Virus record (IMG/VR): IMGVR_UViG_3300005528_003595
Location: 1 to 30,068 of that record
DNA from: a virus
Direction: 5' to 3' (one strand)
DNA length: 30,068 nucleotides
Notes under the pieces: model-generated
What the model saw: the letters and a program-made list of their open reading frames with translations, nothing else
Database searches by the model: none
What the model was told of the DNA's origin: nothing
Shown: positions 3,859 to 26,340 of the stretch, piece by piece
How positions within the stretch are numbered: position 1 is the first letter of the stretch
Layout: every line of letters starts with the position of its first letter
Program-made: the position numbers and the translations under genes

Positions 3859-3866
3859 CATAAATA
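3859..3866 (+). promoter_or_regulatory. T4-type late promoter CATAAATA
   Basis: CATAAATA differs at one position from T4 TATAAATA. It lies in the gap after the ATPase gene, 24 bases before the ATG at 3890. The predicted start near 3872 leaves room for the AAGGCAGG ribosome-binding site at 3880-3887. Confidence 0.65.
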
Positions 3867-3889
3867 ACAGACTACTACCAAGGCAGGCA

Positions 3890-4087
3890 ATGAAAACACT
3901 AGCATTAATACTTGTTGCATATGTAGGTGCATTGTGCGCTTTTGCTGCTAGTGGATTTCTTGCCTCCTGGGTATATCAATTAAATGGATGTTTGTGGACC
4001 TCAAGCGGTGTGTTTGGGGTCAGTTTTTTGGCTATAGTTACTGGATTTGCAGGTGCAGTTGCTGGCTTAGTGGACTGGTTTCGTTGA
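3890..4087 (+). CDS. small two-helix membrane protein under a late promoter
   Basis: A 65-residue protein, not recognised by sequence. It has two hydrophobic segments: residues 3-28, beginning MKTLALILVAY after a single Lys, and residues 40-62, which is rich in Gly and Ala. A short polar turn (YQLNGCLWTSS) joins them, and it ends in WFR. The first segment could alternatively be a signal peptide. AAGGCAGG precedes the ATG by 2-3 bases, and a late promoter sits 24 bases upstream. Size and topology resemble class II holins, but no lysis enzyme is adjacent, so the role is open. The TGA stop lies inside the TTGACA box of the next promoter. Confidence 0.7.
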   Translation: MKTLALILVAYVGALCAFAASGFLASWVYQLNGCLWTSSGVFGVSFLAIVTGFAGAVAGLVDWFR

Positions 4088-4111
4088 CAGCCTGAGATTT
4101 CATGCTATAGT
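4084..4111 (+). promoter_or_regulatory. sigma-70-like promoter, 16-base spacer, for the kinase-phosphatase gene
   Basis: TTGACA at 4084-4089 and TATAGT at 4106-4111, spacer 16. Only 5 bases (TAAGC) separate the -10 box from the ATG at 4117, so transcription should begin at or within a base or two of the start codon. The -35 box contains the stop codon of the preceding gene. Confidence 0.7.
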
Positions 4112-4122
4112 TAAGCATGAAA
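4098..4122 (+). promoter_or_regulatory. hairpin burying the start codon of the kinase-phosphatase gene
   Basis: TTTCATGCT (4098-4106) and AGCATGAAA (4114-4122) are perfect complements, 9 pairs with a 7-base loop. The ATG (4117-4119) is in the 3' arm and the -10 box (4106-4111) spans the arm-loop junction. RNA reading through from upstream would fold the start codon away; RNA begun at the local promoter lacks the 5' arm. Confidence 0.6.
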
Positions 4123-5377: not shown

Positions 5378-5959
5378 ATGAATGCCACATTGGTACTCAA
5401 TGCTGATTACAGTCCCTTGGGTGTAGCTCCTTTGAGCGCACTCAACTGGAAAGAAGCCATCAAGCTGATTTATCTTTCTCAAGTGGATGTTATAGAGCAA
5501 TACTCTGATTGGTTTGTGCATAGTCCCAGTGTTACGATGCAAGTACCCAGTGTAGTTGTTTCAAAAACTTATGTTAAATCCAGCCGGAGTGTGAAGTTCA
5601 ATAAACAAAATTTGTGCATAAGAGACAACTACACTTGCCAGTATTGTAATCAAATATTTGACATCAAAAGTCTAACCATTGAGCACGTGATCCCCCGCTG
5701 CCATGGAGGCAAAACAACTTGGACCAATGTCACTATGGCATGCAGCAGATGTAACACACGGAAAGGCCATCGCTTGGACGTGCATCCGCAACGGTTGCCT
5801 TACAAACCCAGCATTGGCGAAATCATAAGCAAGGTCAAAAAACAGCCTGTGATTGTTCCCAACAGCAACTGGATTCCTTACATTGGCTGGTCGCCAAGTT
5901 TGGTTTCAGTGCGCGAACCTTATAAAAATATTGACAAGGTTGTTGAAAGACAAACATAG
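5378..5959 (+). CDS. HNH endonuclease
   Basis: A 193-residue protein of the stand-alone HNH type found in phages and bacteria. The N-terminal part (LNADYSPLG, residues 7-15; LSALNWKEAIKLIYL, 19-33; VPSVVVSKTYVK, 56-67) is the conserved leader of this subfamily. The nuclease follows: zinc knuckle CQYC (87-90), EHVIPR with the catalytic His103, HGG (109-111), Asn117, and the second knuckle CSRCN (122-126) before KGHR. It cuts or nicks DNA. Members serve as homing endonucleases or in DNA packaging, and here the role is not clear: it is not adjacent to a terminase and does not visibly interrupt a gene. AAAAAAGG lies 6 bases before the ATG at 5378, and a promoter overlaps the end of the previous gene. 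Confidence 0.9.
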   Translation: MNATLVLNADYSPLGVAPLSALNWKEAIKLIYLSQVDVIEQYSDWFVHSPSVTMQVPSVVVSKTYVKSSRSVKFNKQNLCIRDNYTCQYCNQIFDIKSLTIEHVIPRCHGGKTTWTNVTMACSRCNTRKGHRLDVHPQRLPYKPSIGEIISKVKKQPVIVPNSNWIPYIGWSPSLVSVREPYKNIDKVVERQT

Positions 5960-5984
5960 TCTTATAACCTATAGGAGAATATTG

Positions 5985-6209
5985 ATGAGCGAAACACTAG
6001 AGGAAAAAACTCCTCCCCCAGGCGCATCTGGCGCAACTGAAATCACCATTACAGATTTGAAGAACGTACTGGTTCTTATTGATCTTTGTACCCAACGCGG
6101 GGCCTTTCGTGGCCCAGAGCTTAGTTCCGTTGCTGGACTATATGACAAAATTCAAAGCTTTGTTGGTGTAGCTGAAGAAGGCAAAAACACCAGCCCCACA
6201 GGCATTTAA
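5985..6209 (+). CDS. small phage protein of unknown function, 74 residues
   Basis: No named function. A Pro/Glu-rich N-terminus (MSETLEEKTPPPGASG) precedes a compact helical core with LKNVLVLIDLCTQRGAFRG (residues 26-44) and ELSSVAGLYDKIQSFVG (46-62). The core pattern (two helices around 'D-x-x-x-QRGAF+') resembles short proteins I associate with aquatic T4-like phages, but I cannot name the family. AGGAG (5973-5977) lies 7 bases before the ATG at 5985, which rules out the longer in-frame start at 5853 inside the HNH gene. The next gene starts 11 bases later with its own strong ribosome-binding site, so the two are probably co-expressed. Confidence 0.75.
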   Translation: MSETLEEKTPPPGASGATEITITDLKNVLVLIDLCTQRGAFRGPELSSVAGLYDKIQSFVGVAEEGKNTSPTGI

Positions 6210-6220
6210 GGAGTACATTT

Positions 6221-6898
6221 ATGTTTGACAACATGTATCGTCACACAGGACAACTCAACAACACAGGCAAAAATGTTGTAGTTGTGTTTATGCAATTACC
6301 TGAAGATCCAGCCCATGCTTTAGTAATTGATACAGATGCTTTGCCAGATATGTATAATGAAGCTCTCCGCAAGGTTGTTGAAAGCACAGAAGGACAGCAG
6401 GCCAAGAATCTGGCTGACGTTTTGGCACGCCGACCCAGCCCTGACGGCAGCTCAACAAGCATGCTGGTTAAGTTTCATCAAAGCAATAGGCTTCAAAAAA
6501 CACCAGTAACCAACGTAACAATGGTTCCTCGTAGAGGCGTTCGTTGGCCACTTACTGACGTTATCTCAGCTATGTCATCCCAAGAAACTGTGCCACAAGG
6601 GTTTGATGATCTTGATCCTGAAACCAAGGCTATGGTTGCTGCTGATCTCAAGAAGTTCAATGTTCATGCAGTGAATTCCGAAAATGAAAACACTGGTGCC
6701 ACTAGAGCACAAGCTGCTAATCTATTGGAAATGGCTCGCATGCTTGAGATGGATGCTCATAGCAAGAGAGAGCAAGCTTATCGTATTGATCCCAGTTTGA
6801 AGCCCAGTAAAAAAGCACAGCCAACTGCCCCTGTGGTGGAAGAAGCAACCTCAGCACCTCCTCCGAAAAAAACCAGCAAGGTCAAACAAGCTGGCTAA
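6221..6898 (+). CDS. phage protein of unknown function with Pro/Lys-rich tail, 225 residues
   Basis: Not assignable to a named function. The N-terminal domain (about 1-125) is well folded in appearance, with a central strand VVVVFMQLPEDP (19-30) and NVTMVPRRGVRWPLTDVI (98-115). A helical stretch (130-190, DLDPETKAMVAADLKKF and ANLLEMARMLEMDAHSKREQAY) follows. The last ~30 residues are a disordered Pro/Ala/Lys-rich tail (PTAPVVEEATSAPPPKKTSK), common in virion or DNA-associated proteins. AAGGAG stands 7 bases before the ATG. It lies 11 bases after the previous small gene, which suggests a two-gene unit. It is followed by a hairpin that controls the next gene. Confidence 0.8.
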   Translation: MFDNMYRHTGQLNNTGKNVVVVFMQLPEDPAHALVIDTDALPDMYNEALRKVVESTEGQQAKNLADVLARRPSPDGSSTSMLVKFHQSNRLQKTPVTNVTMVPRRGVRWPLTDVISAMSSQETVPQGFDDLDPETKAMVAADLKKFNVHAVNSENENTGATRAQAANLLEMARMLEMDAHSKREQAYRIDPSLKPSKKAQPTAPVVEEATSAPPPKKTSKVKQAG

Positions 6899-6907
6899 CA
6901 TAAAAAT

Positions 6908-6954
6908 CTCAAGAACTGGATCCTTTGATAAATAAAGTAACTCCAGTTCTTGAG
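6908..6954 (+). promoter_or_regulatory. 13-bp hairpin with a late promoter in its loop, covering the ribosome-binding site of the gene at 6961
   Basis: The arms 6908-6920 (CTCAAGAACTGGA) and 6942-6954 (TCCAGTTCTTGAG) are perfectly complementary over 13 bases with a 21-base loop. The loop holds GATAAATA (6927-6934), one base different from T4 TATAAATA. The 3' arm includes the GAGG (6952-6955) ribosome-binding site for the ATG at 6961. Late RNA would start near 6940-6941, just before the 3' arm, and so could not form the hairpin. Confidence 0.8.
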
Positions 6955-6960
6955 GTAGCT

Positions 6961-7326
6961 ATGGCAAAGAAAAAAACAGCTGAAGACTTGGAATGGGAGG
7001 CTATATTCAACAGTATATCTTTTGATACTGAACCTCCAGCCAAATACATAAAAGATGCTGTAGTAAGAACCCGTTACGGCAAACGCATCAAATTATCTGG
7101 AAAAGAATTCGTTTCCGTAATGGAACAGGAACGCATGATGGATCCTGAGGATGCTCTGATTGAAAGCTGCAAAGTCACATTGGATTTTGATAGGCTGAAA
7201 CAAGACATAACACGGTTCGCCAATTCAGTTCTCAAGAAGGCCAGCAGTCGTTACAAAAAAAGCAGAGCCCAAACCAGTCAAGCTGCTAAATTACGCCAAT
7301 TAACTGCAAAACTCAAACAAAGTTAA
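6961..7326 (+). CDS. basic late protein of unknown function, 121 residues
   Basis: Not recognised by function. A basic protein (MAKKKTAEDLEWEAIF start; C-terminus with SSRYKKSRAQTSQAAKLRQ) with a central segment KLSGKEFVSVMEQERMM (residues 45-61) and a helical C-terminal half. Overall charge suggests nucleic-acid or virion contact, but this is only inference. The ATG at 6961 is chosen over an in-frame TTG at 6925 because GAGG (6952-6955) lies 5 bases upstream and because the late promoter at 6927-6934 would cut off the longer form. Expression should be strictly late: the ribosome-binding site is locked in a 13-bp hairpin in any RNA started further upstream. Confidence 0.8.
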   Translation: MAKKKTAEDLEWEAIFNSISFDTEPPAKYIKDAVVRTRYGKRIKLSGKEFVSVMEQERMMDPEDALIESCKVTLDFDRLKQDITRFANSVLKKASSRYKKSRAQTSQAAKLRQLTAKLKQS

Positions 7327-7402
7327 TTTTATAAGCTGCCTGTTCAACTTGATTTAACTACAGTATCTAGCACAAAATAACGGATAGATATTGGAGATTG
7401 GG

Positions 7403-8332
7403 ATGACGACTTGGGAACAGGTGGCTGGCGACAGCAGATACACACAGGTGCTTGACAAAGGCTTTGTGGGCTTGATTGACTATATGGGGGATGATGCTGC
7501 TATTGTTCAAGCTGCGCGGGTCAGTTATGGTGCTGGCACCAAATCAGTAAATGAAGATCGCGGACTGATCCGCTATCTTATGAGAAATTCTCATTCAACT
7601 CCATTTGAGATGGTGGAGTTCAAGTTTCACCTCAAAATGCCAATTTTTGTAATGCGGCAACATGTGCGACACCGAATGGCCTCAATTAACGAATACAGTG
7701 GACGATACTCAGTAATGACTGATGAGTTTTATATTCCGGAACAGAGCCGACTGCAAGCACAAAGCCGTGACAACAAGCAAGGCAGCGGAGCACAACTACA
7801 CGGTCAAGAGTTGGAAATGGCCTTGAACACCATCAAACGTGTAAGTGCAGAAAACTATTTGGACTATCTCAGCCTCATAAATGATGAAGAAGGCAGAAAC
7901 TATAACCTTGGTGAACGGCAGGGTCTTGCCCGCGAGCTTGCACGTATGGTGCTCCCGCTGAACAACTACACTGAACTGTATTGGAAAATTGACCTAAAGA
8001 ATCTATTTCACTATCTTAATCTAAGAGTTGACTCACACGCTCAAATGGAAATTCAACAACTGGCATTGCCCATTGCAGAACATGTCAAGCGGATTTGCCC
8101 TATCGCATGGGAAGCTTTTGAGGACTATTGGCAACAGGCCACTACAGTCAGCAGGCTAGAGAAAAACCTGTTGCAGGCGCTTATTGAATTCAGCAGCACA
8201 CAGAGTGTGGGCTTTGGTGAAAGCTATGAGACCATGTGCCAAAAGGCCGGTGGTAAAGCTCAGCTTCAAAGTGAGTTTGGAATGAGCAAGCGAGAAATGG
8301 CAGAATTTGAGAGGCAGTGGAAACTGGCTTAA
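7403..8332 (+). CDS. thyX: flavin-dependent thymidylate synthase
   Basis: Makes dTMP from dUMP using methylene-tetrahydrofolate with FAD and NADPH, in place of ThyA. The 309 residues carry the diagnostic ThyX motif RHR-x7-S at residues 89-99 within RHRMASINEYSGRYS (89-103), preceded by the helix leading to FVMRQHVRH. Other family marks are AARVSYGAGTK (37-47), MRNSHSTPFEM (60-70) and, near 190-240, LPLNNYTELYWKIDLKNL with LRVDSHAQMEIQ. A C-terminal extension of about 65 residues ends in GMSKREMAEFERQW, as in longer ThyX proteins. The ATG at 7403 is chosen over TTG 7391 because GGAG (7393-7396) lies 6 bases upstream. It is the last gene of the rightward block and converges on the tail fibre gene, the two sharing a terminator-like hairpin. 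Confidence 0.96.
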   Translation: MTTWEQVAGDSRYTQVLDKGFVGLIDYMGDDAAIVQAARVSYGAGTKSVNEDRGLIRYLMRNSHSTPFEMVEFKFHLKMPIFVMRQHVRHRMASINEYSGRYSVMTDEFYIPEQSRLQAQSRDNKQGSGAQLHGQELEMALNTIKRVSAENYLDYLSLINDEEGRNYNLGERQGLARELARMVLPLNNYTELYWKIDLKNLFHYLNLRVDSHAQMEIQQLALPIAEHVKRICPIAWEAFEDYWQQATTVSRLEKNLLQALIEFSSTQSVGFGESYETMCQKAGGKAQLQSEFGMSKREMAEFERQWKLA

Positions 8333-8344
8333 GTAGCCAGTTTC
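8320..8344. terminator. bidirectional terminator-like hairpin between thyX and the tail fibre gene
   Basis: GAAACTGGCT (8320-8329) and AGCCAGTTTC (8335-8344) form 10 perfect pairs around a 5-base loop. Both converging stop codons fall around the loop (thyX TAA 8330-8332; fibre TAA on the minus strand at 8329-8331). On the plus strand the stem is followed by a pyrimidine run (TCTCTTCC). A short GC core and partial T-runs make it a plausible terminator in both directions. Confidence 0.6.
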
Positions 8345-10119
8345 TCTTCCAAAGCTGCTAGTTTTTGGCTTAACTCTTGCACTGCTGCCCAAAGTATAGG
8401 AACCAACTTGCTGTTATCTACTGATTGATAAACTGGTTGCCCTAGGTCATTTACCTCGTCCTTTTTGCCTTGCACGGCTTGTGGAACAACCTCTTGTAGC
8501 TCATGTGCTATGAAGCCAATGCTGGGGTTAACGTGCTCTGAATCCTTCCACGTATATGTTTTAGCTTGCACTTGATCTATTAAACCAAGTGCACTCTGCA
8601 AGGGCAATACATTGGTTTTACGTCTGTAATCTGAAATAGTGTTGTATAAGGTTCCTGTGTCATCAAAAGTGATGCTACCAGTTTCATAAGCGTTCAAGAC
8701 AGATAAAGTATTGGTTTTGAACGAAATTGCCTTTTGCACTGATGGAACAACTGAATAACTACCCCACATATTGATCATGGTATTTGGTTGTGGATTACCA
8801 GGCCCACTAACTGTGGATCGTATGTTGATCCCATCAGTATTGGCTTGATTCATATTGATAGTGAGAAAAGAGTCGTTAAAAGCCGGGCTAGCAGTTGCAT
8901 TGGCAGCGACTGTGACATCCCCCAATCGTAGGCTACGGTTTACAAATCTTGCTGTTTCCACATTGGAGATATAAAATCCAATCATGTTTGCAGCCGGGGT
9001 GCCCATGCCAGTTCCTGTGCTCTCGCGGAACACATATTTCACAGGACCATCGTCTTCATTGTGTGCACTAGCACAGAATTTATTTGAATATATACGGCTA
9101 TAAAAAAATGGAGGATCAAGAGGCCCTGTGCCTTCATAACCCAAATTAAATGCAGCATTCAACGTAGGGACGTTGTTCTGATCTCGTCTCATAAGCACAC
9201 TGCTGGAGATGCCCACAAGCGACGTTGCTGTTGTAGCTGTTGTTGCTGTACCTTCAAAGTTTGTTGCATATACAGTATTGTATCGGTTGCTTACACTTCC
9301 CAAATTGTATAAGTTATCATTTATGGGTAGGTTGGTTTGATCTCTACGCATATAGCTTCCTGAAGGTATGCCCCCTAGGAACAAGCTGTTTTGTGCCAAA
9401 CCAGTGCTGGTGCTTTCGCCATAGAATTTGGCGTTGGGTAATGTGGGATTTAACGTAATACCAGGATATATGTTTGTAAACCCTTGTAATGGGTTGGTGG
9501 GAGATGCAGCAGGAGAGAACGTAGCATCGTTACTGACCACAGCCACAAGTTGTCCACCCACAGTCAACCTCAATACCTTGTGGATGGCACTCACGGTGTC
9601 AGTTACTAACAGTGCATCAACACTTGTAAAACTGGGAATACTGGGACTGTTGGCGTCATTGCTGTCAGCAGCGCCAATGGGCCCAACTAGGTTCCATTGG
9701 GTTGAACCATAGACAAAAAGTTGTTTCTTGGCTTGATCAAACAAAAGTTCGCCGTCAACAGGATTGACTGGCCCAGGAGGACTGGGTGGTCCTGGAGGGG
9801 GCGGCCCAGGTGGGGCAGGAGGAGGAACAACAGGTGTGGTTTGCACAGGTGCTGCACTTTTCCAAGCTGTGCCATCATACACCTTCAATTGTGCGTTGGC
9901 AACATCGTACCACAGTTGACCAACTCTTGGATTTGTGGGTCCTGATACTGGAGCACCAGCGAAATTTTCCAATATCCATACCAAGTTCTCCACAACAGGT
10001 TCACCATAATTGGGATAATTACGGCCAGGCAACCGCAATGATGTTGCAGTTGTATTGATTGTTTTGTCAGGAATGGATGCAATCGGAGTTCCACTGTAAC
10101 TGTTGATTACATATGTCAT
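8329..10119 (-). CDS. tail fibre protein with C-terminal S74 intramolecular chaperone
   Basis: A 596-residue virion fibre. The N-terminal ~90 residues contain an attachment-type segment ending in the repeat VGQLWYDVANAQLKVYDGTAW. A Pro/Gly-rich linker (about 92-120) follows, then a second copy of the same type of motif (DGELLFDQAKKQLFVYGSTQW), then a long beta-structured shaft with repeating MRRDQ-N-P-x-LN-x-x-(Y/F)NLG elements. The last 101 residues are a peptidase S74 chaperone: Ser496 and Lys501 in SDYRRK form the autocleavage dyad, followed by GLIDQVQAKTYTW, GFIAHELQEVVPQAV and a C-terminal coiled-coil heptad stretch. After trimer folding the chaperone cuts itself off before Ser496. Expression should be late: the CCTAAATA promoter and an SD-covering hairpin lie just upstream. 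Host range is likely set by this protein. Confidence 0.93.
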   Translation of the reverse strand: MTYVINSYSGTPIASIPDKTINTTATSLRLPGRNYPNYGEPVVENLVWILENFAGAPVSGPTNPRVGQLWYDVANAQLKVYDGTAWKSAAPVQTTPVVPPPAPPGPPPPGPPSPPGPVNPVDGELLFDQAKKQLFVYGSTQWNLVGPIGAADSNDANSPSIPSFTSVDALLVTDTVSAIHKVLRLTVGGQLVAVVSNDATFSPAASPTNPLQGFTNIYPGITLNPTLPNAKFYGESTSTGLAQNSLFLGGIPSGSYMRRDQTNLPINDNLYNLGSVSNRYNTVYATNFEGTATTATTATSLVGISSSVLMRRDQNNVPTLNAAFNLGYEGTGPLDPPFFYSRIYSNKFCASAHNEDDGPVKYVFRESTGTGMGTPAANMIGFYISNVETARFVNRSLRLGDVTVAANATASPAFNDSFLTINMNQANTDGINIRSTVSGPGNPQPNTMINMWGSYSVVPSVQKAISFKTNTLSVLNAYETGSITFDDTGTLYNTISDYRRKTNVLPLQSALGLIDQVQAKTYTWKDSEHVNPSIGFIAHELQEVVPQAVQGKKDEVNDLGQPVYQSVDNSKLVPILWAAVQELSQKLAALEEKLAT

Positions 10120-10125
10120 AATTGT

Positions 10126-10154
10126 TGCCTCAGAGTATTTCTGATATTTAGGCA
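10126..10154 (-). promoter_or_regulatory. late promoter bulged in a hairpin covering the tail fibre ribosome-binding site
   Basis: Read on the minus strand: TGCC (10154-10151), TAAATA (10150-10145), TCAGA (10144-10140), loop AATAC (10139-10135), TCTGA (10134-10130), GGCA (10129-10126). The two arms form 9 pairs with the promoter core TAAATA as a 6-base bulge. The 3' arm holds GAGG, the fibre gene's ribosome-binding site. RNA begun at the predicted late start (about 10139) lacks the 5' arm. Confidence 0.6.
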
Positions 10155-10182: not shown

Positions 10183-10767
10183 TTACGCTGTCTGGATACG
10201 AATTGTATATACTACTTCAATTTCGCGATTCAAGGATTTTTGAACTGGTGAGAACACCACATGGCTGATCAACAAGCCTGTGTCAGGAGCAGATTTTTTT
10301 GTTTTCAAGCCCAACTCATTGAACACATATGGACTGGAAACATCTGTTGCTGTATCAAATGCATCTTGTCCAGCAGGTTCACCCAATCCCAATACACACG
10401 TGATTTTCACATCAGTGTATAAAGTGCCTGGTCTGTGAATGACTTTGATAAAATTGCGAGTGGGGTCAGTGTTGTCGGGACTGAGATCATTTACTACCTT
10501 GTAGTATGTTTCGTTATATAACTGTGCGTCTAATCCCTGGACATTTGGAGGCAGATAAATCACTGTGCCCACGCCAGACACCACGGCTGCTCCATTTCCA
10601 AAAACCATCTCTTGGATGTAGCCTTCAGGGCGATAGGCCAAACCTTGGGCCAATGCAATACTGAAATTCTCAAAATTGATGGCATTGTATTTGTCCACCA
10701 ACACTTCCTTGGACTGAAAGTCGCGAATCAAAACGTGGCCTGTAATGCTGTTCAAGGGAGTTTCCAT
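10183..10767 (-). CDS. virion structural protein (tail/baseplate-associated), 194 residues
   Basis: Lies between the giant structural protein and the tail fibre gene and reads in the same direction, so it is very likely part of the baseplate or fibre apparatus; the exact role is not known. The N-terminal segment HVLIRDFQSKEVLVDKYNAI (residues 11-30) followed by NFENFSIALAQGLA is a pattern I associate with tail-region proteins of T4-like phages. The rest is beta-rich with Gly turns (EMVFGNGAAVVSGVGTVIYL) and ends in the strand NREIEVVYTIRIQT. No catalytic motif is visible. The ribosome-binding site is poor and the start lies 2 bases after the stop of a 42-codon ORF, so translation may be coupled. 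The nearest late promoter (CATAAATA, 10904-10911) lies upstream of that ORF. Confidence 0.85.
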   Translation of the reverse strand: METPLNSITGHVLIRDFQSKEVLVDKYNAINFENFSIALAQGLAYRPEGYIQEMVFGNGAAVVSGVGTVIYLPPNVQGLDAQLYNETYYKVVNDLSPDNTDPTRNFIKVIHRPGTLYTDVKITCVLGLGEPAGQDAFDTATDVSSPYVFNELGLKTKKSAPDTGLLISHVVFSPVQKSLNREIEVVYTIRIQTA

Positions 10768-10769
10768 TT

Positions 10770-10898
10770 TTAGGAGAGCCTTTTGTCTAGGATTATTTTG
10801 TTTGAATTTAAATCTTTGATCAGTAGATGACTGCTTACTACTAGTTTTTGGCAGTCATCTACTTTTTCATCCACAGGGGTTTCAGTGTTTTGTTCCAT
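10770..10898 (-). CDS. 42-residue ORF resembling the N-terminus of the next gene (truncated paralog or leader)
   Basis: Begins MEQNTETPVDEK on the minus strand, 8 bases after the stop of the giant gene, and ends 2 bases before the ATG of the 194-residue structural protein. Residues 24-39 (HLLIKDLNSNKIILDK) align without gaps to residues 11-26 of that protein (HVLIRDFQSKEVLVDK), 7 of 16 identical and most others conservative. It then stops at RLS where the longer protein goes on to its conserved YNAINFENF. It is therefore either a cut-down duplicate or a coupling leader. There is no Shine-Dalgarno site; the ATG stands 5 bases after CATAAATA, so a leaderless message is possible. Confidence 0.5.
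   Translation of the reverse strand: MEQNTETPVDEKVDDCQKLVVSSHLLIKDLNSNKIILDKRLS
10822..10863. repeat. 13-bp inverted repeat inside the 42-codon ORF
   Basis: AGTAGATGACTGC (10822-10834) and GCAGTCATCTACT (10851-10863) are perfect complements with a 16-base loop. On the plus strand the stem runs into TTTTT (10863-10867), so it could terminate rightward antisense transcription. On the minus strand it would form a hairpin in the leader of the structural gene. Confidence 0.55.
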
Positions 10899-10903
10899 GG
10901 AGG

Positions 10904-10911
10904 TATTTATG
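10904..10911 (-). promoter_or_regulatory. T4-type late promoter CATAAATA
   Basis: On the minus strand CATAAATA overlaps the TAA stop of the giant gene (10909-10907). It would drive the 42-codon ORF and the 194-residue structural gene. Its predicted start falls at about 10898, the first base of the 42-codon ORF. Confidence 0.6.
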
Positions 10912-13900: not shown

Positions 13901-16900
13901 CCAGTATTGTGGACGTTGACCGCCACTTATGTATTGATCAAACAAGCGGTCAACTTCTTGGCTGGTGTTGTCCCAGCCCAATACACCATCCCACACTGGC
14001 TCGCCCCATCTGCCATTGAGATTGAAGTCTAAACCATCCAGGACAGTTCCTTTTGGGGCACACCCACTGATCAACAAAGGATCTGTAGCAGGAGGCATGC
14101 CTGGACTGGGTTGATACAAACTTTGAATTCTGTTTGCTGCACCATTGTCCAGTTGATAACCAATCAAATCAAATACACCAGAATCATACTTGAACAAACT
14201 CCAAAGGCCCACATTATCACGAGTGACTTTGATGATTTCACCGTTGGGCAAGTTGCTCAACTGCTCCATTTGTTCAATAGTATCCACAACACGATTTGGT
14301 ATAGTGGCATCACTGTAACCAGGGCTGTAATAATTTTGAGCAGGAGCACATGCCAGCCTGTCCAAAATGATTCTTGTACGCACACTTCGGACACTGAGAT
14401 TTTCTGTGTCAAACACTGTAACACTCACAATATCGCCCACACCAGGTGTGAAATTCAATTCCACAACTGTGGGATCTTCCAAAGATATTACGTAGTCGTT
14501 AGTCAGCACATTGTTCCAACGCACTTGTGTGAATTGCCAAGTTATGGGATTTACCATAGCAACAATGTTGGTGAGTCCGTCGCCAACAATAGTTTTGCGC
14601 TCCAAGTAACTGGAAGCATAAACATAAGCTTTCACAACCTCAGTGGCTTTTGGAACAAAAACCAAATCAATTATGGAGTTGTCACCACTCCGCAGAGTCC
14701 AAGCTTGTGTAAGTTTGTTGTTCCAGTAAACCAAAACATTTTCTGGCTTGGTAGCGAGACTCAATTGAATACTCTGCTGAGAGTTATTTCCTACAAGCGT
14801 AGCTGTTTCGATAAGAGCACCACTGCTGGCCTTGTAGTTGTTGAACCAGGGCTTGTATATTGTATCACCACTTAAAATTGCAAGATCCACAGGGTTATTG
14901 GCACTCAATATTCTCACATTTTTGTTGACATCCACAAACGGAGGATTGTCCAGATCACTACTATTGCTCTGCCAGACGTCTGAGCTTACTCGGAAATCCA
15001 CAAATTGCCGTATAACCACATGATAGGGTTTGACTTCTTGAATATATTTTTCCAAGCTGTTGATCTTGCTGGGATCATAGTATGCAGAACTCAAAAGTTG
15101 CTGACTGAATCCCTTCAAATTTATGAAGCTGGTTTTGAAACACCAATCAACAAAATTTTGTTCGCTCAACACATGATTTATCAACTCAAAGAACACAATA
15201 TTGCGCTCATTTAGATTGGAATCAACCTTCAACAAGCCAACACTCTTGTTGTTTTCTGGCCACAGTCCCTGCAAGATAAAACTCAACTCCAGTCGTGTGT
15301 CATACTCCCAACCTTGATAATCAACGTCGTAACTTCCACCATTGAATCCCATGTTGTATTTTTGATAGTCATACAAATTATCACTCAGTTGAAGACTGCC
15401 ATTTTGCACACCAATAACAGTCCATTCAGTATCTGACTCAGGAGTATATTTGAAAAGATTCCACCTACCATTTCCGGTGTTCAAAACTTTGACCAAAGTG
15501 CCGGTTTCCACAACAATATCAGCACGATCAGCCAAAGTGGCCACAGTTTGATCAATCAGTGTGTCGCTGCTATAGCCAGCTGCATACCAGTCCACTAGGC
15601 TCCAAACCTTGTTGGTGTCCCATGCTTGCATTCGCTCTAGAGAGAACAAGCCTTGTCCTTCATAAGCCCAAATGGTCCATCGATTGTCTGTCATGGCACT
15701 TACATCCACCAACACTTTGTTACCGGGTATCAAGCTGGGTATCAAAGCGTCTCTCTCAGCTAAAGAGGCAACATGATAATCCCAATTGTTGGGCAAAATG
15801 CCTTTTACTGGTCGCACAATTTGCCACTGTATGGGATCTACACCAAACTTTAAAATGTCCTTGTTGGTTTGAATGTATGTGGTTGGCAACAATTGCTGCG
15901 CCCCCTCCAACACCCGAACTTGTGCATCAATCACATTACTGCTCAAGCTGTCAAAATCAGTAGCTCTCACCAAGATCCATGGAGTGTTGGGTGGAGCACC
16001 AGTTTCAACTACCTCATAAATGCCATTTTGATTTGGGGCTTGTGTTACAATGCCATTTGTAGTTACTGCTGTATTTTGATTTTTTACTAGTATACGGTCG
16101 CCCAAACTTACTGTAATACCATCCACAACCAAGGGTCCAAACATATTACCTGCATAAGTCAATGTTGCCCCTTTGCCATTCTCTCCTGGATAGTATACGC
16201 TGTCCAAAGAAACTGTGGTTGCTACTCTAGCATCAGCTTTTTGGTTTTTCTGGGGAGGCAAAGGTTCAACAGACTGAAAATAAGGTAGCCAGCCCAACCG
16301 ATCAGGATCGTCGAGCGGTGGCACAAGGCTGCTGCTTAGCAATGAGTTGATTTTTTTCACCAATGCTCTGCGGGCAGTTGCGCTGTCTTTGAACCAACTT
16401 TGTGAGGGCCGGGTAAGCATGCCATACTTGCTCATTTCAGGAAGTCGCAAATTGGGCACGCTGTTACCTGCTGGGTTGAACTCCACTAAGCTGTCGCACA
16501 TCTTGCGCCACAAATCCAATGTGGGTGTGCTCAAGGGATCATTTGGTCTCAACAAGGTCCATTCTTTGTAGATTTTGTCTACATTTTCTCTGCTAGTGTA
16601 ATTCACTTGCCACACTGTATTATTGGCGTCAAGGAAACTTCCAATATTGCCTAGTAATGCGCCTGTGTTGCTTATTGCTGCCCACCAACTTTGATTTTGT
16701 GTTTGCGGACTTTCCAATATTTGGCTCAAGGATGCAACACTGATCTTGCGGCCAGCCACATTAGGAACAGTGGTTTTGCCTTTGACCCAAAAGTAGTAGA
16801 CATTTGTGTATTGTCCGCTTTCGTTACGCTCACTGCGCATCACATACGGATAATTAGCCCCTTTCACTGTTCCGGTAGGTGTTTGATCTCCCCCTGTGGC

Positions 16901-22900: not shown

Positions 22901-22963
22901 CAGGATGTCTGTTTGAAGTACTTCAGGTAGCAGATCGCTTATTCGTCGTTTTGTGTCGCTCAT
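10907..22963 (-). CDS. giant virion structural protein, 4018 residues, in the gp7 baseplate position
   Basis: One uninterrupted frame of 12,057 bases. It starts 4 bases inside the end of the gp6-like gene (ATGA overlap), as expected of a baseplate partner. In T4 the gene after 6 is 7 (1032 residues), so a gp7-like wedge role is inferred from position; the sequence itself is not recognisably gp7. The N-terminus (MSDTKRRISDLLPEVLQTD, then LPCDCDMWLNFQEYVW near residue 130) is of a kind seen in large structural proteins of aquatic T4-like phages. Internal repeats: 'W-x-L-F/W-x-Y' modules near residues 2420, 2495 and 2915; beta-sandwich modules opening with GDG-x(3-4)-F near 2793, 3020 and 3233, with related ones near 558, 2730, 3475 and 3600; and GTGY/GSGY-(N/P)xxD repeats near 3073-3350. 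These look like tandem receptor-binding or spacer domains. Translation is coupled to gp6. Confidence 0.9.
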   Translation of the reverse strand: MSDTKRRISDLLPEVLQTDILRKFFAATADHLFQPEKVEYLNNYIGRKPSWYNPKKDFYVVESTKAREDYQVEATAISRSQGSDAVSHILFYEDLLNKLRSQGALTNDHNRLFEQEYYSFGLPCDCDMWLNFQEYVWLSDGPDTISLLDTTDFSAVSAQSTYTYTGRYSFANSPASVVDGLQTPLVFSSGLKVKPTLDLNIQLRDREWIIEGVGRKIYFVDDTDSSLKIRWDNPKEYDSTPWDGVDKLVTPAYVVLQRGSTNQNPWSIRNRWFHRDILSQSQTLLPDVNTFVAKYPIICFDKTTTLYNFGTTGRGRVSLVDNRTLDLGNLIGRSQSNSNPILVDSISLDDGMTILFTNLSDPLANNKIYRVSGIRSDNKLTLQLVPNGPDLTGAPKNNDSIYVSNGDPLNRFFDTYLRYQASTGSWVSAQSWKQTVGTQTPLFMLFDTEGNSLSDPSIYPLSDFSGSSLFAYDPEQLAALNQSTLQVSANELNFLNTLSTKSWTYQPQNVRVDITGFLFWETVDPASQAAVYQNNWFKSPVLSRQYVVNQFYTTSSEKSFSLDQAPGVGTPGPNAINVEVAGKMLTPAEYIVSGNVLTLVTPAPANTNVIVKTWQNINNTATNGYFEIPKNLEANPNNQEITTVSRQNIINHLISVIGNQLNITGNIIGANNWRDTAQNQSLGTVILQHRAPLLKTMILNSIAQTTALTSSNALLDPMVVMQWAQKEYLRFYNKYINSLINLYNSGGITLANPINEWVDRALKSINVGKTLNSPWAMSGFDGVPGRYCDEKSTNPTFVPASATRLGVTPAFVPTAFFDTTQPNNPLSLRCHNGAVVVLKDFNGVDLGTIRDNLPSTVDPELLTHPVSRAWMQLEVYLFNSLPATYRNSDAVQKLDTRTIFSGKWRTTNYSYKDQLTLMYPIFERWLTTNQLDAFKNTTYKIDDPFSWNYGKCTDQENNPVPGHWRGIYYLFFDTDRPDSAPWEMLGFSQQPSWWTAEYGAAPYSSGNTKLWYDLRDGRIRQGHRKGIDPGYARPGLMQYVPVNEFGELLPPVQAKIVTSSPSEAEARADWKFGDRGPLENVWLTAVDSDQIWAQISYLAKPPQFIEYLWDGPRAQQIFSGQNTSQWIWKNYKKRVSNSELFVHRENPENVTTLRSELSYYGSCGIQHWISEYLINDSRSVTEYFGNVIRNSDVSLGYRAAGFIDGTSVQLLVDSFGLSSNDSLLIPQEDVTNNLIRSASLKEFFYSGVIVEYRGTEGYRVIGYDSYDPNFYIIPSNLNGPKTTVIVDKVRAIEYRVGLPTVSKVPYGTILPTQQDVFDFLVSLGRWQISQGWLFDEFNSTTGQQQDWSLSGKEFLFWSQGPWAAGNYIALSPLALKTKFATGFGTIQNIGGIVNGAYTILDRGGRPIQVQNIDFLRIDNQVSVRPLNDQGIFGLRLYTTGLEHALLFQNKTIFGDTVYDPLFDVRQSRFKIQTYKSMDWAGRLEAPGYLVTQTTSTIGDRVVVNNQILANFEKTVNDVRKLYNVDVPTPYNFTDSTGLHENAVSALSQSLPQRFNMLATHLVGYQQREYLTNLLIDETTQFQFYQGMIKQKGTKGTIDSLLRNTQLVDSNESFSYYEEYAFRLGTYGSNELIHGIDVLLPQAEVRSNPQLVEFFSGETVDLPYDDTITITPKDSRLLYKSELTPEFALRDHYGSEAGDLPNSGYVLFSEATYYVKDQQELFSLYQTLQNKNVDLQAHDRVWQFIDSAIGWNIYKVCKPSWTIQQTTPVTLNQTTVVTNIPHKLQNGNILILSGVSGVNGRLDGTFSVFNVTANTFDVQATTESTGSNGQVLQYWSIRFPTYNDFNTATPPGGWTQRDYAYVDGTRDTPWKVYQKYGVWFEYRSENKKVDTKLLLASTLYNKTTLQTLVHLNIWDPGKGALPGLISEEVKYRTHWDPASYNAGDARLYQVDPSSAWGPNQVGETWWDLSTTRFIDYEIGTDSYRRRHWGQVAPGITIDIYEWVRSLVPPSSWAGAVTAGNAAATGGDQTPTGTVKGANYPYVMRSERNESGQYTNVYYFWVKGKTTVPNVAGRKISVASLSQILESPQTQNQSWWAAISNTGALLGNIGSFLDANNTVWQVNYTSRENVDKIYKEWTLLRPNDPLSTPTLDLWRKMCDSLVEFNPAGNSVPNLRLPEMSKYGMLTRPSQSWFKDSATARRALVKKINSLLSSSLVPPLDDPDRLGWLPYFQSVEPLPPQKNQKADARVATTVSLDSVYYPGENGKGATLTYAGNMFGPLVVDGITVSLGDRILVKNQNTAVTTNGIVTQAPNQNGIYEVVETGAPPNTPWILVRATDFDSLSSNVIDAQVRVLEGAQQLLPTTYIQTNKDILKFGVDPIQWQIVRPVKGILPNNWDYHVASLAERDALIPSLIPGNKVLVDVSAMTDNRWTIWAYEGQGLFSLERMQAWDTNKVWSLVDWYAAGYSSDTLIDQTVATLADRADIVVETGTLVKVLNTGNGRWNLFKYTPESDTEWTVIGVQNGSLQLSDNLYDYQKYNMGFNGGSYDVDYQGWEYDTRLELSFILQGLWPENNKSVGLLKVDSNLNERNIVFFELINHVLSEQNFVDWCFKTSFINLKGFSQQLLSSAYYDPSKINSLEKYIQEVKPYHVVIRQFVDFRVSSDVWQSNSSDLDNPPFVDVNKNVRILSANNPVDLAILSGDTIYKPWFNNYKASSGALIETATLVGNNSQQSIQLSLATKPENVLVYWNNKLTQAWTLRSGDNSIIDLVFVPKATEVVKAYVYASSYLERKTIVGDGLTNIVAMVNPITWQFTQVRWNNVLTNDYVISLEDPTVVELNFTPGVGDIVSVTVFDTENLSVRSVRTRIILDRLACAPAQNYYSPGYSDATIPNRVVDTIEQMEQLSNLPNGEIIKVTRDNVGLWSLFKYDSGVFDLIGYQLDNGAANRIQSLYQPSPGMPPATDPLLISGCAPKGTVLDGLDFNLNGRWGEPVWDGVLGWDNTSQEVDRLFDQYISGGQRPQYWVFKGDGVQSKFSLPQAPQAPNDLRVWVNGALQNTPFNWTIKNYITAAEVANQGTGYNVNDILTVVGGTFTSAAKLKVVNTSLTGSILNLEVVFPGAYTVTPSGTAVQATGGSGTNATFVLRWGGTSLEFSVPPPAPVAKPNIWVAEAGSTFESALGGTLDAVYDGLGLSRPHLEGNHPEELFPLFAKETFVMDVMNQPTVGFGNVLCESWVGDGITDRFFIGQPVFSAVDVIVSVGGVLKTLGPTADYVFDPSSNSIVFVFPPTGNVAITSFGFGGATPGLGNWTIVNQGTGYNLNDSISLSDQSVSYTSTTVLVTAIRATSVVVNQPGSGYQPGDLLYFKYGSGSQTLVVKVDATTAFGGIAGQIVSVSIVNPGFYTQPSISQNEWYTNGNGVGGFITPQWGVADIRPLTRGSYLNKNVGLQQVGVTTSSGAPGLGTGFSISNYSSHLQETKTVVFDVSSQLITMDQPIGVNTVLMTWNGVPTVSFGINPADQRQIGLGFTPLPGDTVVVLVYSSQYQSLQKTQSLTVSLPVLSYPLSLSTPTNPLVGFNPAQSNNAIVYANGKRLTPPYLFSALGDNTTTVYSLAITPDPTSVVNVWQNASLLANTEYSLAGNQITFTTPPLSQSFIYIEVADPVAQNYDYQIVGTQLELASWAVADGDIIVVRTWGEDSSSAFYNEVWPGDPSNLYLFTNTPLEFPSVQVWLNGNALSWVLDYTILKTGNSWYLKLGNHYTLTGADKLQAYYPTALPSKDSVAFRVFTNVYQDTQYLRLGNEDRTVLTQDLKWDDKEIFVANGGAVLDPSDKRPGVIWVEGERIEYFDKAPAASSLFPQQAVLRKINRATLGTPGGIPDKFVAQYWSGTGNSDLYPVTVTNFPEWQTGLVSAYVIVDGKPQNSWTLINNPPNAAPGFYLQFASQALDPVFEPPPAGNKNIGLIVFKQDWKTTGVTHPVNSVVRDGSLRQVIPGGYQWPYGSLGLQYSNTYQTQFLLSQPGSIPA

Positions 22964-25900
22964 TTCAGTCTCAATTCAGTTTGGTTTAAGCTGGGAACAA
23001 TCAAAATGTCAGTGACTTTAGCACTGCTTATGAAAATTTCATCCGGTTGGCATTTGATCTCAAACAAATCGCCAAAACTACTGTCTTGGTTTTGTGGCAC
23101 AATCACAACAGAATTCAACACAGCAGGATTTTGTTGATGAATATATGCAGCAAGCTCAGTGAAAAAGAAGCTTTGACCAAAATCCCAATTGGCTATACTG
23201 AAATAGTTGTCAACATCTCGTATAATGCGTGCTTTAATTTCACTGTCAGTGATACTGACACCAGTGTTTTTTACAACCTTGAAAGTCACACGCAGCTCGG
23301 GATCAGCACTTTGTCCAAACAGCAGTTTGTATTTCACAGGGTGCCAAATAAGTTGATCAGTCATCATTTTGTAAGTGTCAAATTCCGCGAAAGTAATGCG
23401 CAAATCCTCTGGTGTTGGAGGCTCAGGCATGGGATCACTGGTTTTCCCTCTGGCGATCCAATTACGCATTGCTGTATCATAAGAGCTGGTCAAAACATAA
23501 GTGTCAATTATGTTCATAATTGCAGGATCAACACGCTTGCTTTTGTCAATAAAATGCTGCCAGCAGTAGTTGAGATCATTACGGCCCACTGCTGCCTTGT
23601 AGCTGACTGTTACATCAATCAAGCTGTTGCTGCTGGCTTGATACTGGAAAAACAGTTTTTGATCTCTTACATAAGCAATGTCTTTGTCTGCCCAAGCTAA
23701 AGGATTGGGCGGATATTTGGTGCTCATTGTAATGAGATCAGTAAAAATTTTGTTCACTGTTGTGGGTGTCAAATAATCAAAGCCATTTATTACTGTGGTT
23801 TTCCAAAAAACATAGGGAAAACTGTTGGGAGTAATCAAACCAGTATTGAGATCAATTTGTTGTTCACGATCTGGATCCACAATGGTTTTGAATTCATCAG
23901 GATTGTCAACAATGCCGTCATAATTGGAGTCTTGGAACCGAACTTGAACTCTGCGTGGCTCAACATATCCATCAGGATACAGTTGTTGTGATGCAATTGG
24001 CCAAAACCAGTCTTGGGAAAAAACACTGTTTTTGGCTAGGTCAGTATTCACCCGGAGTATTTTGATAAAGTCTTGGTTGGCCAAGCCATTTATACTGTTT
24101 ACAACTGGGGTTGTATTGATGGTATAAAATCTCACATCATTCTTGCTTTCAAAAACATATCTCATTCCTCTGCCAGTAATATACCACCCGGAACCCGGCA
24201 CATATTTGAGTTGAATGAGCCAGCTTGCATCTAAATTTTGATTTGATGTATTGCCTTGTTGTGAGAGTGAGAAATCAGAGTCCACAGCCAAATTGCTAGT
24301 GGAAATCACCTGCCACATGCCTGTGAGCTGCATATAAGTTATGCCGAACGAAAGTTTTTCTTCCAAAGCATTTTTGATTGCTTCTTTCTCACTAGCTGCT
24401 AGCACGTCTTTGTAGCTGGGCACAACACTGCTTAAGAAAACGCCGTTGGGCACGAAACTGCTGATTACAGCGTTTCCGCCACTGCTTACGCTGTTTCCTT
24501 CATCAATGAGGTAACTGCTGGTGCCGTTGGCAAAAAACAAATAACTGCCATTGCGTATGCCATATGTTGTGTCCGGCAATCCCAAAACAAAATCTACTGA
24601 TTGTGTGTAAAAATGGGCGTTGGGGAACACAGTGTTGCTGGGGTTTTGATTTGTCCATTGAATATTGCCACCCGTGCGTTTGGGGTATTTGGCCAAATAA
24701 AAGTCCCGCATATCTGTGTTGATTTTTCTTGAATCAAAACTGCCTTGAATCAAAGGTTGAATGTAGGTGTCCAGTATTTGTGTTGTGTTGACATTCAAAC
24801 TGTTGGGCACTTCAATGTAGGTTTCATGCTCTTCTTGAAACAAGATTCCATCATCTGAAAAAACTTTTGAATTTTGATAAGTGCTTGTGGGATCATTTAT
24901 GTCAATGTATCGACTTTGTCCACTGTAGACTCGGTTAACACTTTTGATTTTCAATGCTTGGCTGCTGATAAGAGGATATACATTGTAATCCTCCCCATTC
25001 ACCATCCGATTCTGAGAGTAAAATACAGCTGGTGCTCGCTCTTTTATAAATGTATTGCTTTCACGACTGAGGCTGTTGGCCACAGTGCTTTGCAGATCAA
25101 ATTGCATTTGCAAGAGATTTTGTGAAGTGCCATCATTTTCTCTGTAGTAACTCAAGCTAAGTGGCACGCTGGCGATTTCTTGAGGCAAGATAGTGTAAGT
25201 TAAGTTATTGCTGGTGCGATAGTAGACTCTGATACGCCCAACAGGAATGTTGCCAAAGTTGCCATCACTGAATTTGATGCTGATGGAATCAGTGCCACTG
25301 ATGTCACGTGTGATAACTTGGAAAATATCACGTGTTGCACGATTCAATGCATTATATGCAATGTTTGTGCCAAACAAGGCTGGGACTTTGGTCCACTCAA
25401 TAAGAGTATTGCCTTGGTCGTCAACAGTTTCAACCCACACATCACTTTCATTTACATTCAAAGCAGTTAAATCCAGCACGCGGTTGCTCAAGGGCTCGGA
25501 GAGCACGAAATCCGTAAATGCCAGTGTTCCTTGTTTGAATAGGCCAAAAAATCCCGTGTCAGGACTGGCATTGCCATTGCCATCATTTCTGTATAACAAG
25601 CTCCAAGGCAGAATATAATTGGGTGTTTTTTCTCTGTAATAGCCTGCTGCGCCCACTGTAATGCTGCCATTTACACTTCCCACGAAGTCAGTGTTGACAA
25701 ATTCAAAATTCATTTGTTGTCCATTCACAATAGATGTGAATGGAAAAGCCAATGTGCGTGTTACAATGTTATCAAGATCATATCGTTCAACTGTGAGCCC
25801 ATTTACTGTTCCAGTTTTCACTGGTTGGCCAAACGGATTGACCTTGCTAAAACTGGCGTTCAAAACCAAAACAAATTGCTCAAACCAGTCGGGGTTGTTG

Positions 25901-26340
25901 GCGTCATTCCAAATCACAGGCACATTGGCTAGATTGAATCCATTGGAATCAAATATGTTCTGATCAGTTATAACTTGTGTTAACTTAACCAAACCTTGTG
26001 CGGCAATACAACGCCGCGGGTTGTAAGAAATCAGTCGTGCAAGGCGGAAAATGCTGTCTCTACGTGTGGCTGTATCGATGAAATTTTCGCGGATATTGAG
26101 ATCCAAGCGAAATGCCAAACTGGACGCCAAATAACTCAACAATTCAATTATGGCAACAAATTCGCTGCTTTCAATCCAGTCGTTGAAATCTTCAGGATAG
26201 TTCAAACGTATGTAATCAATCAACGCCTGACGAATTGTGTCATAGTCATAGGCGTTGAAATTAATTTGGCTCATGGCTTGATACAGCACGCGCCAATCTT
26301 GGCCCAAGAATAAATTATTTTGTCGGAGGCTTTGACTCAT
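22960..26340 (-). CDS. 6: baseplate wedge protein, gp6-like
   Basis: A 1126-residue homologue of T4 gp6 (660 residues), which forms the inner ring of wedges around the tail tube and belongs to the baseplate J-like family. The N-terminal region (FNAYDYDTIRQALIDYIRL, residues ~28-46; ELLSYLASSLAFRLDLN; ENFIDTATRRDSI; LARLISYNPRR) is the hallmark of gp6. The J-like core lies near 355-385 (IKFSDGNFGNIPVGRIRVYY) with the following NRMVNGEDYNVYPL (~440-453). The C-terminus (~1015-1115) has the usual DSEIKARIIRDVDNYF and FTELAAYIHQQNP. Extra length lies between these, in ~500-1000. The start at 26340 is preceded by a weak AGGG and a CTTAAATA late-promoter match 31 bases upstream. Confidence 0.92.
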   Translation of the reverse strand: MSQSLRQNNLFLGQDWRVLYQAMSQINFNAYDYDTIRQALIDYIRLNYPEDFNDWIESSEFVAIIELLSYLASSLAFRLDLNIRENFIDTATRRDSIFRLARLISYNPRRCIAAQGLVKLTQVITDQNIFDSNGFNLANVPVIWNDANNPDWFEQFVLVLNASFSKVNPFGQPVKTGTVNGLTVERYDLDNIVTRTLAFPFTSIVNGQQMNFEFVNTDFVGSVNGSITVGAAGYYREKTPNYILPWSLLYRNDGNGNASPDTGFFGLFKQGTLAFTDFVLSEPLSNRVLDLTALNVNESDVWVETVDDQGNTLIEWTKVPALFGTNIAYNALNRATRDIFQVITRDISGTDSISIKFSDGNFGNIPVGRIRVYYRTSNNLTYTILPQEIASVPLSLSYYRENDGTSQNLLQMQFDLQSTVANSLSRESNTFIKERAPAVFYSQNRMVNGEDYNVYPLISSQALKIKSVNRVYSGQSRYIDINDPTSTYQNSKVFSDDGILFQEEHETYIEVPNSLNVNTTQILDTYIQPLIQGSFDSRKINTDMRDFYLAKYPKRTGGNIQWTNQNPSNTVFPNAHFYTQSVDFVLGLPDTTYGIRNGSYLFFANGTSSYLIDEGNSVSSGGNAVISSFVPNGVFLSSVVPSYKDVLAASEKEAIKNALEEKLSFGITYMQLTGMWQVISTSNLAVDSDFSLSQQGNTSNQNLDASWLIQLKYVPGSGWYITGRGMRYVFESKNDVRFYTINTTPVVNSINGLANQDFIKILRVNTDLAKNSVFSQDWFWPIASQQLYPDGYVEPRRVQVRFQDSNYDGIVDNPDEFKTIVDPDREQQIDLNTGLITPNSFPYVFWKTTVINGFDYLTPTTVNKIFTDLITMSTKYPPNPLAWADKDIAYVRDQKLFFQYQASSNSLIDVTVSYKAAVGRNDLNYCWQHFIDKSKRVDPAIMNIIDTYVLTSSYDTAMRNWIARGKTSDPMPEPPTPEDLRITFAEFDTYKMMTDQLIWHPVKYKLLFGQSADPELRVTFKVVKNTGVSITDSEIKARIIRDVDNYFSIANWDFGQSFFFTELAAYIHQQNPAVLNSVVIVPQNQDSSFGDLFEIKCQPDEIFISSAKVTDILIVPSLNQTELRLK

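Follow-up and report, generated by a model that had tools for sequence, protein, structure and literature searches.

A predicted translational lock around an internal late promoter in a jumbo myophage of the Atu_ph07/Rak2-like lineage

In phage T4, the late promoter of genes e, soc and 49 lies within the helix region that sequesters the Shine-Dalgarno sequence: the early read-through RNA folds, whereas the 5' strand of the helix is missing from the late RNA, according to passages of PMC3014915. Passages of PMC2988022 describe the combination of a late promoter and a hairpin sequestering the ribosome-binding site (RBS) for I-TevI, I-TevII and segB from T4 and mobE from Aeh1, in each case with the gene inside an early or middle unit. 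In the Rak2-like phage CBB, the motif ATAAATA and a gp55-like sigma have previously been described (PMC5259590); a text search of that paper returned no mention of an RBS-locking hairpin.

The locus discussed here belongs to a stretch of viral DNA of 30,068 bases (the window). Judged by its sequence, the window comes from a jumbo myophage, of which it is a fragment. Its gp6-like baseplate wedge protein (22960-26340, minus strand) is 38-40% identical to the counterparts in Agrobacterium phage Atu_ph07, Sinorhizobium phage Phosso and the Rak2-like phages, which are thus its kin. A DNA-level search with the 7 kb around the locus gave no match among named phages, and the close relatives of the window are IMG/VR contigs of 38 to 329 kb. 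The lineage shares with CBB the late-promoter class and a gp55-like late sigma.

The gene of a 121-residue protein is preceded in the window by a hairpin with a late promoter box in its loop and the Shine-Dalgarno in its 3' arm (Table 1). This is very probably a translational lock of the T4 gene e type, with an internal late promoter, directed against early read-through. The layout is the same as in T4 gene e, but the phage lineage is another one (jumbo, Atu_ph07/Rak2-like), the gene is unrelated, the arm sequences differ, and the lock of the window is a prediction. I-TevI, I-TevII and segB share this layout too; these three and mobE are homing endonucleases, whereas no endonuclease match was obtained for the 121-aa protein. 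The described examples that were found come from T4 and its relatives, and the open literature searched yielded no earlier report of such a lock in the present lineage. Here, the layout is kept in a distant jumbo lineage, with an unrelated gene and changed arms.

Table 1. Features of the window around the 121-aa gene and at the other sites discussed (window positions)
Feature	Positions	Strand	Basis or remark
5' arm of hairpin	6906..6920	+	13 perfect pairs 6908-6920; A-U and U-G added at 6906-6907
Late promoter box GATAAATA, T4-type, in loop	6927..6934	+	predicted start ~6940
3' arm of hairpin, including Shine-Dalgarno	6942..6956	+	pairing
GAGG, Shine-Dalgarno for ATG 6961	6952..6955	+	sequence; predicted opening cost
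Gene of 121-aa protein (locked gene in the model)	6961..7326	+	ORF, 121 codons
Sigma70-type promoter TTGACA-N18-CATAGT	5931..5960	+	heads the run small ORF/225-aa/121-aa
Sigma70-type promoter TTGACA-N16-TATAGT, extended -10, before NinI-like gene	4084..4111	+	
Small ORF, 74 aa, upstream operon	5985..6209	+	counterpart called in 328-kb relative
225-aa protein (phrog_15894), directly upstream of 121-aa gene	6221..6898	+	
ThyX-type thymidylate synthase, downstream of 121-aa gene	7391..8332	+	
CCTAAATA, plausible late promoter of tail-fibre gene	10147..10154	-	surrounding pairing weak, non-significant

A reading of the letters without database searches (hereafter the sequence-only reading) had reported perfect complementarity over 13 bases between 6908-6920 and 6942-6954. 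The pairing is present, with a loop of 21 nt, and the positions given for the box in the loop, for GAGG in the 3' arm and for the start codon are borne out. The RNA stem comprises 15 pairs (6906-6920/6942-6956, one of them U-G) with z = -5.2 to -5.75, and none of the shuffles of the window leader folds as well as the native RNA. The folding energy is -23.8 to -28.2 kcal/mol for leaders of 76-86 nt. Dinucleotide shuffles give an expectation of 0.04 stems of at least 13 bp per window, compared to two found, at 6908-6954 and 10822-10863. An Rfam search gave no match.

The predicted effect on the ribosome site was scored as the free energy required to open the Shine-Dalgarno, in the RNA made from the predicted late start and in an RNA with 45 more upstream bases. 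In the window, the computed cost of opening GAGG is 0.8 kcal/mol for the late RNA and 9.5 kcal/mol for the read-through RNA. This rise (dd) of 8.7 kcal/mol has a p value of 0.002 against shuffled upstream sequence, and the value for the late RNA stays practically the same for any start between 6938 and 6945. Among T4 genes used as positive controls, the rise is 11.8 for e, which is comparable to the window, 11.1 for I-TevI, 11.2 for I-TevII, 4.9 for segB and 5.2 for 49; the scores of I-TevI, I-TevII and segB are in the same range as that of the window. Most T4 structural late genes are near zero, but scores are also obtained for 51 (9.2), 4 (4.1) and segE (3.6). The known lock of T4 soc is not recovered (dd 0.9), so that false negatives can occur. 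The leader of T4 gene 51 (L053, around 16462-16481), which was run as a control, has the score of a strong lock (9.2 kcal/mol, p 0.005), and this gene is not among the locked T4 genes listed in the passages of PMC3014915 and PMC2988022.

Profile searches led to ten distinct leaders of the 121-aa gene, window counted, which fall into two clades. Clade A consists of six leaders (the window, L035, L036, L040, L042 and L044), with proteins 50-97% identical to that of the window, and clade B of four (L045, L047, L048 and L050), with proteins 28-37% identical. All six leaders of clade A have a strong stem (z between -3.7 and -5.2), and the predicted rise in opening cost of the relatives is 7.4 kcal/mol for L035, 8.8 for L036, 10.8 for L040, 11.7 for L042 and 4.0 for L044. 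The four leaders of clade B are without a strong stem (z between -0.9 and 0.3) and their rise is between -1.7 and 1.2.

Compensatory changes in the arms, which the sequence-only reading had proposed to look for in related phages, were found, the pairing being retained with altered arms. In the window group, the arms differ only by changes from A-U to G-U. The arms of the window group, of L040 and of L042 are mutually unalignable, giving three arm sequences. L044 is similar to L040; its 5' arm carries substitutions and its 3' arm an inserted base, through which the pairing is retained, so that L044 is a compensated variant. As the arms of the six leaders were not correctly aligned by MAFFT, the pairs were tabulated from GAGG. 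At offsets -2 to -6 from GAGG, standard pairs are present in 6/6 leaders and both sides differ between lineages, in a table that leans towards pairing as it uses the predicted fold of each leader.

The TAAATA core is present in 10/10 distinct leaders, and GATAAATA is invariant among the close relatives of the window. Compared to its reversed control, GATAAATA alone shows no enrichment, so the box of the window is a variant and not the consensus; as a genome-wide motif it was rejected, the enriched class being C/TATAAATA. In the 328-kb relative, 28 of the 36 NATAAATA sites are located within noncoding DNA, which represents 13.7% of the sequence. Most of these noncoding sites begin with C or T (C/TATAAATA), and many of them are 20-35 nt before genes. 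A late sigma factor of the T4 type is encoded in the same relative (phrog_12791, E 1.1e-76; also phrog_234) and would recognise the TATAAATA-like boxes. The late sigma factor is also encoded in other clade A contigs and in one clade B contig.

In clade A, the genes are arranged on one strand in the order NinI-like phosphatase, HNH endonuclease, (small ORF), 225-aa protein, 121-aa protein and thyX. In the 328-kb relative, the regions upstream of genes are enriched in sigma70-type promoters of the class TTGACA ... TATAnT. The promoter at 5931-5960 of the window is also found, conserved, in L035, L036 and this relative, while L041 and L034 have a TTGAC-type site at a similar place, and this promoter is the putative source of the early read-through. 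No terminator-like site is predicted on the plus strand from 5960 to 6908. The promoter pattern, the gene order and this lack of a predicted terminator point to a 121-aa gene located downstream of early or middle transcription.

We infer that late transcription starts near 6940, that early RNA reads through, that translation of this RNA is repressed and that the protein is made only late. Early RNA would enter from the upstream sigma70-type promoters through the NinI, HNH and 225-aa genes; the read-through RNA would then fold into the 15-bp stem, and the 121-aa protein would not be made early since GAGG is buried. When the phage late sigma takes over, RNA polymerase would start at about 6940, within the loop region of the hairpin. 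The late RNA could not form the hairpin because the 5' arm is wholly upstream of the predicted start, which would leave GAGG free for the synthesis of the protein. In 6/6 hairpin leaders, the 5' arm is entirely upstream of the late start predicted from the sequence (motif end + 6). The arrangement of T4 gene e, which was the core of the sequence-only reading, is well supported by the pairing retained in the relatives, the predicted start and the calculated change in opening cost.

A different function can be considered for the hairpin, that of an RNA switch of its own (a thermosensor or an operator bound by a protein) acting on all transcripts, with the box in the loop merely as a result of the usual spacing of 20-35 nt. 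Late boxes of the phage are indeed found at this distance from genes with or without a hairpin, but the position of the 5' arm in the six leaders means that it would be absent from late RNA. As for a protein operator, TAAATA and the Shine-Dalgarno region are the only elements common to the lineages, with no other shared arm or loop sequence. Such a switch is quite improbable.

The two other possibilities relate to the stem alone. ATTTTTAT comes after the stem on the minus strand, as in an intrinsic terminator of an antisense RNA. The window, L035 and L036 have this T-run, but L040, L042 and L044 have the hairpin without a T-run on that side, and termination leaves the Shine-Dalgarno in the 3' arm and the late box in the loop unexplained, which makes this function extremely improbable. 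A strong double-stranded stem between two genes of an operon is also what is expected of an element for mRNA processing or stabilisation, such as an RNase III site. This is highly improbable as well: it needs neither TAAATA in the loop nor the Shine-Dalgarno in the stem, yet both are found in every hairpin lineage, and the predicted effect resembles that of the T4 leaders which passages of PMC3014915 describe as acting on translation.

The translational lock can be confronted with the leaders that do not fold. The distant clade B has lost the pairing while keeping GAGG and the gene, an outcome which the sequence-only reading had set against its own proposal; the model is nevertheless unbroken, as the gene is in a late unit there where this is readable. 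In L054, the one clade B contig whose neighbourhood was fully read, the 121-aa gene comes behind counterparts of the structural genes of the window and ends a co-directional run opened by TATAAATA before a tail-fibre gene; it keeps its own TAAATA and the hairpin is absent. L048 and L050 have in common with L054 the immediate neighbours of 150 and 304 aa, judged by length. The gene of the tentative homolog in Atu_ph07, gp247, is oriented against its neighbours; GGTAAATA precedes its start by 32 nt, and its leader has no lock (dd -0.5).

The hairpin therefore tracks the early-operon context where both are readable, in agreement with a prediction of the lock model, although the independent lineages are few. 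The chances seem evenly balanced that the lock is gained or lost according to the transcription unit which holds the 121-aa gene: in an early operon, a hairpin would surround the late promoter, whereas behind late structural genes (and, tentatively, on the opposite strand in Atu_ph07) there would be the promoter only. If this is true, RBS-locking hairpins would be a general and re-evolvable solution for late genes inside early operons, in jumbo phages and T4 alike. The reason why the lock exists can be approached through a natural comparison with the sister clade, whose gene is in a late unit and has no hairpin.

The contrast between the two clades points to a cost of expressing the 121-aa protein too early. 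In a protein-level search against named phages, nothing was found at E ≤ 0.1; Pfam gave nothing above cut-off, and there was no match in PHROG and no fold in the PDB. A search of viral folds matched uncharacterized phage proteins only, one of which is from Atu_ph07 (90 aa). Atu_ph07 gp247, also of 90 aa and possibly this fold match, adjoins thyX, and its comparison with the 121-aa protein (hhalign E 0.026, probability 1.9%) makes it a tentative homolog.

The sequence-only reading regarded the layout as a genome-wide switch. This is not upheld in the 328-kb relative: of its 22 late-promoter leaders, three have p ≤ 0.01 and five p ≤ 0.05, the 121-aa gene showing the largest opening-cost change. 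From these calculations, locking may be limited to a few genes. Two other late promoters of this relative (G005) are candidates for the same switch, at 9174 on the minus strand (dd 5.4, p 0.005) and at 265753 on the plus strand (dd 5.5, p 0.03).

The recurrence of the layout had been proposed at two sites of the window. At 4098-4122, there is a 9-bp palindrome around the extended -10 of a sigma70-type promoter (TTGACA-N16-TATAGT, preceded by TG) and no TAAATA; a late promoter in a loop was thus rejected in favour of the sigma70-type promoter. The latter (4084-4111) ends 5 nt before ATG 4117, so that the start would fall on or beside the start codon, and a leaderless early mRNA is possible for the NinI-like gene. 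Among about 30 sigma70-type promoters of the 328-kb relative, only that of the NinI gene and one more are that close to an ATG. At 10126-10154, the box CCTAAATA is a plausible late box because the relative has CATAAATA there, and the site is probably the late promoter of the tail-fibre gene, but the locking is not significant, either in the window (dd 6.9 kcal/mol, p = 0.106) or in the counterpart of the relative (p = 0.129).

Other elements of the window were observed. The perfect 13-bp inverted repeat at 10822-10863 (minus strand) has a CATAAATA box on one side, at 10911 (minus), and on the other a gene that starts at 10767; no T-run follows the repeat. A 10-bp hairpin at 8320-8344 is placed exactly where the thyX and tail-fibre genes converge, and looks like a shared terminator. 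Lastly, a CATAAATA box is found 23 nt before the gene of a 65-aa hydrophobic protein (3890-4087; region 3859-4087), with no hairpin lock (dd 0.1). It may be a small protein of the membrane or for lysis, with late expression in a region that looks early.
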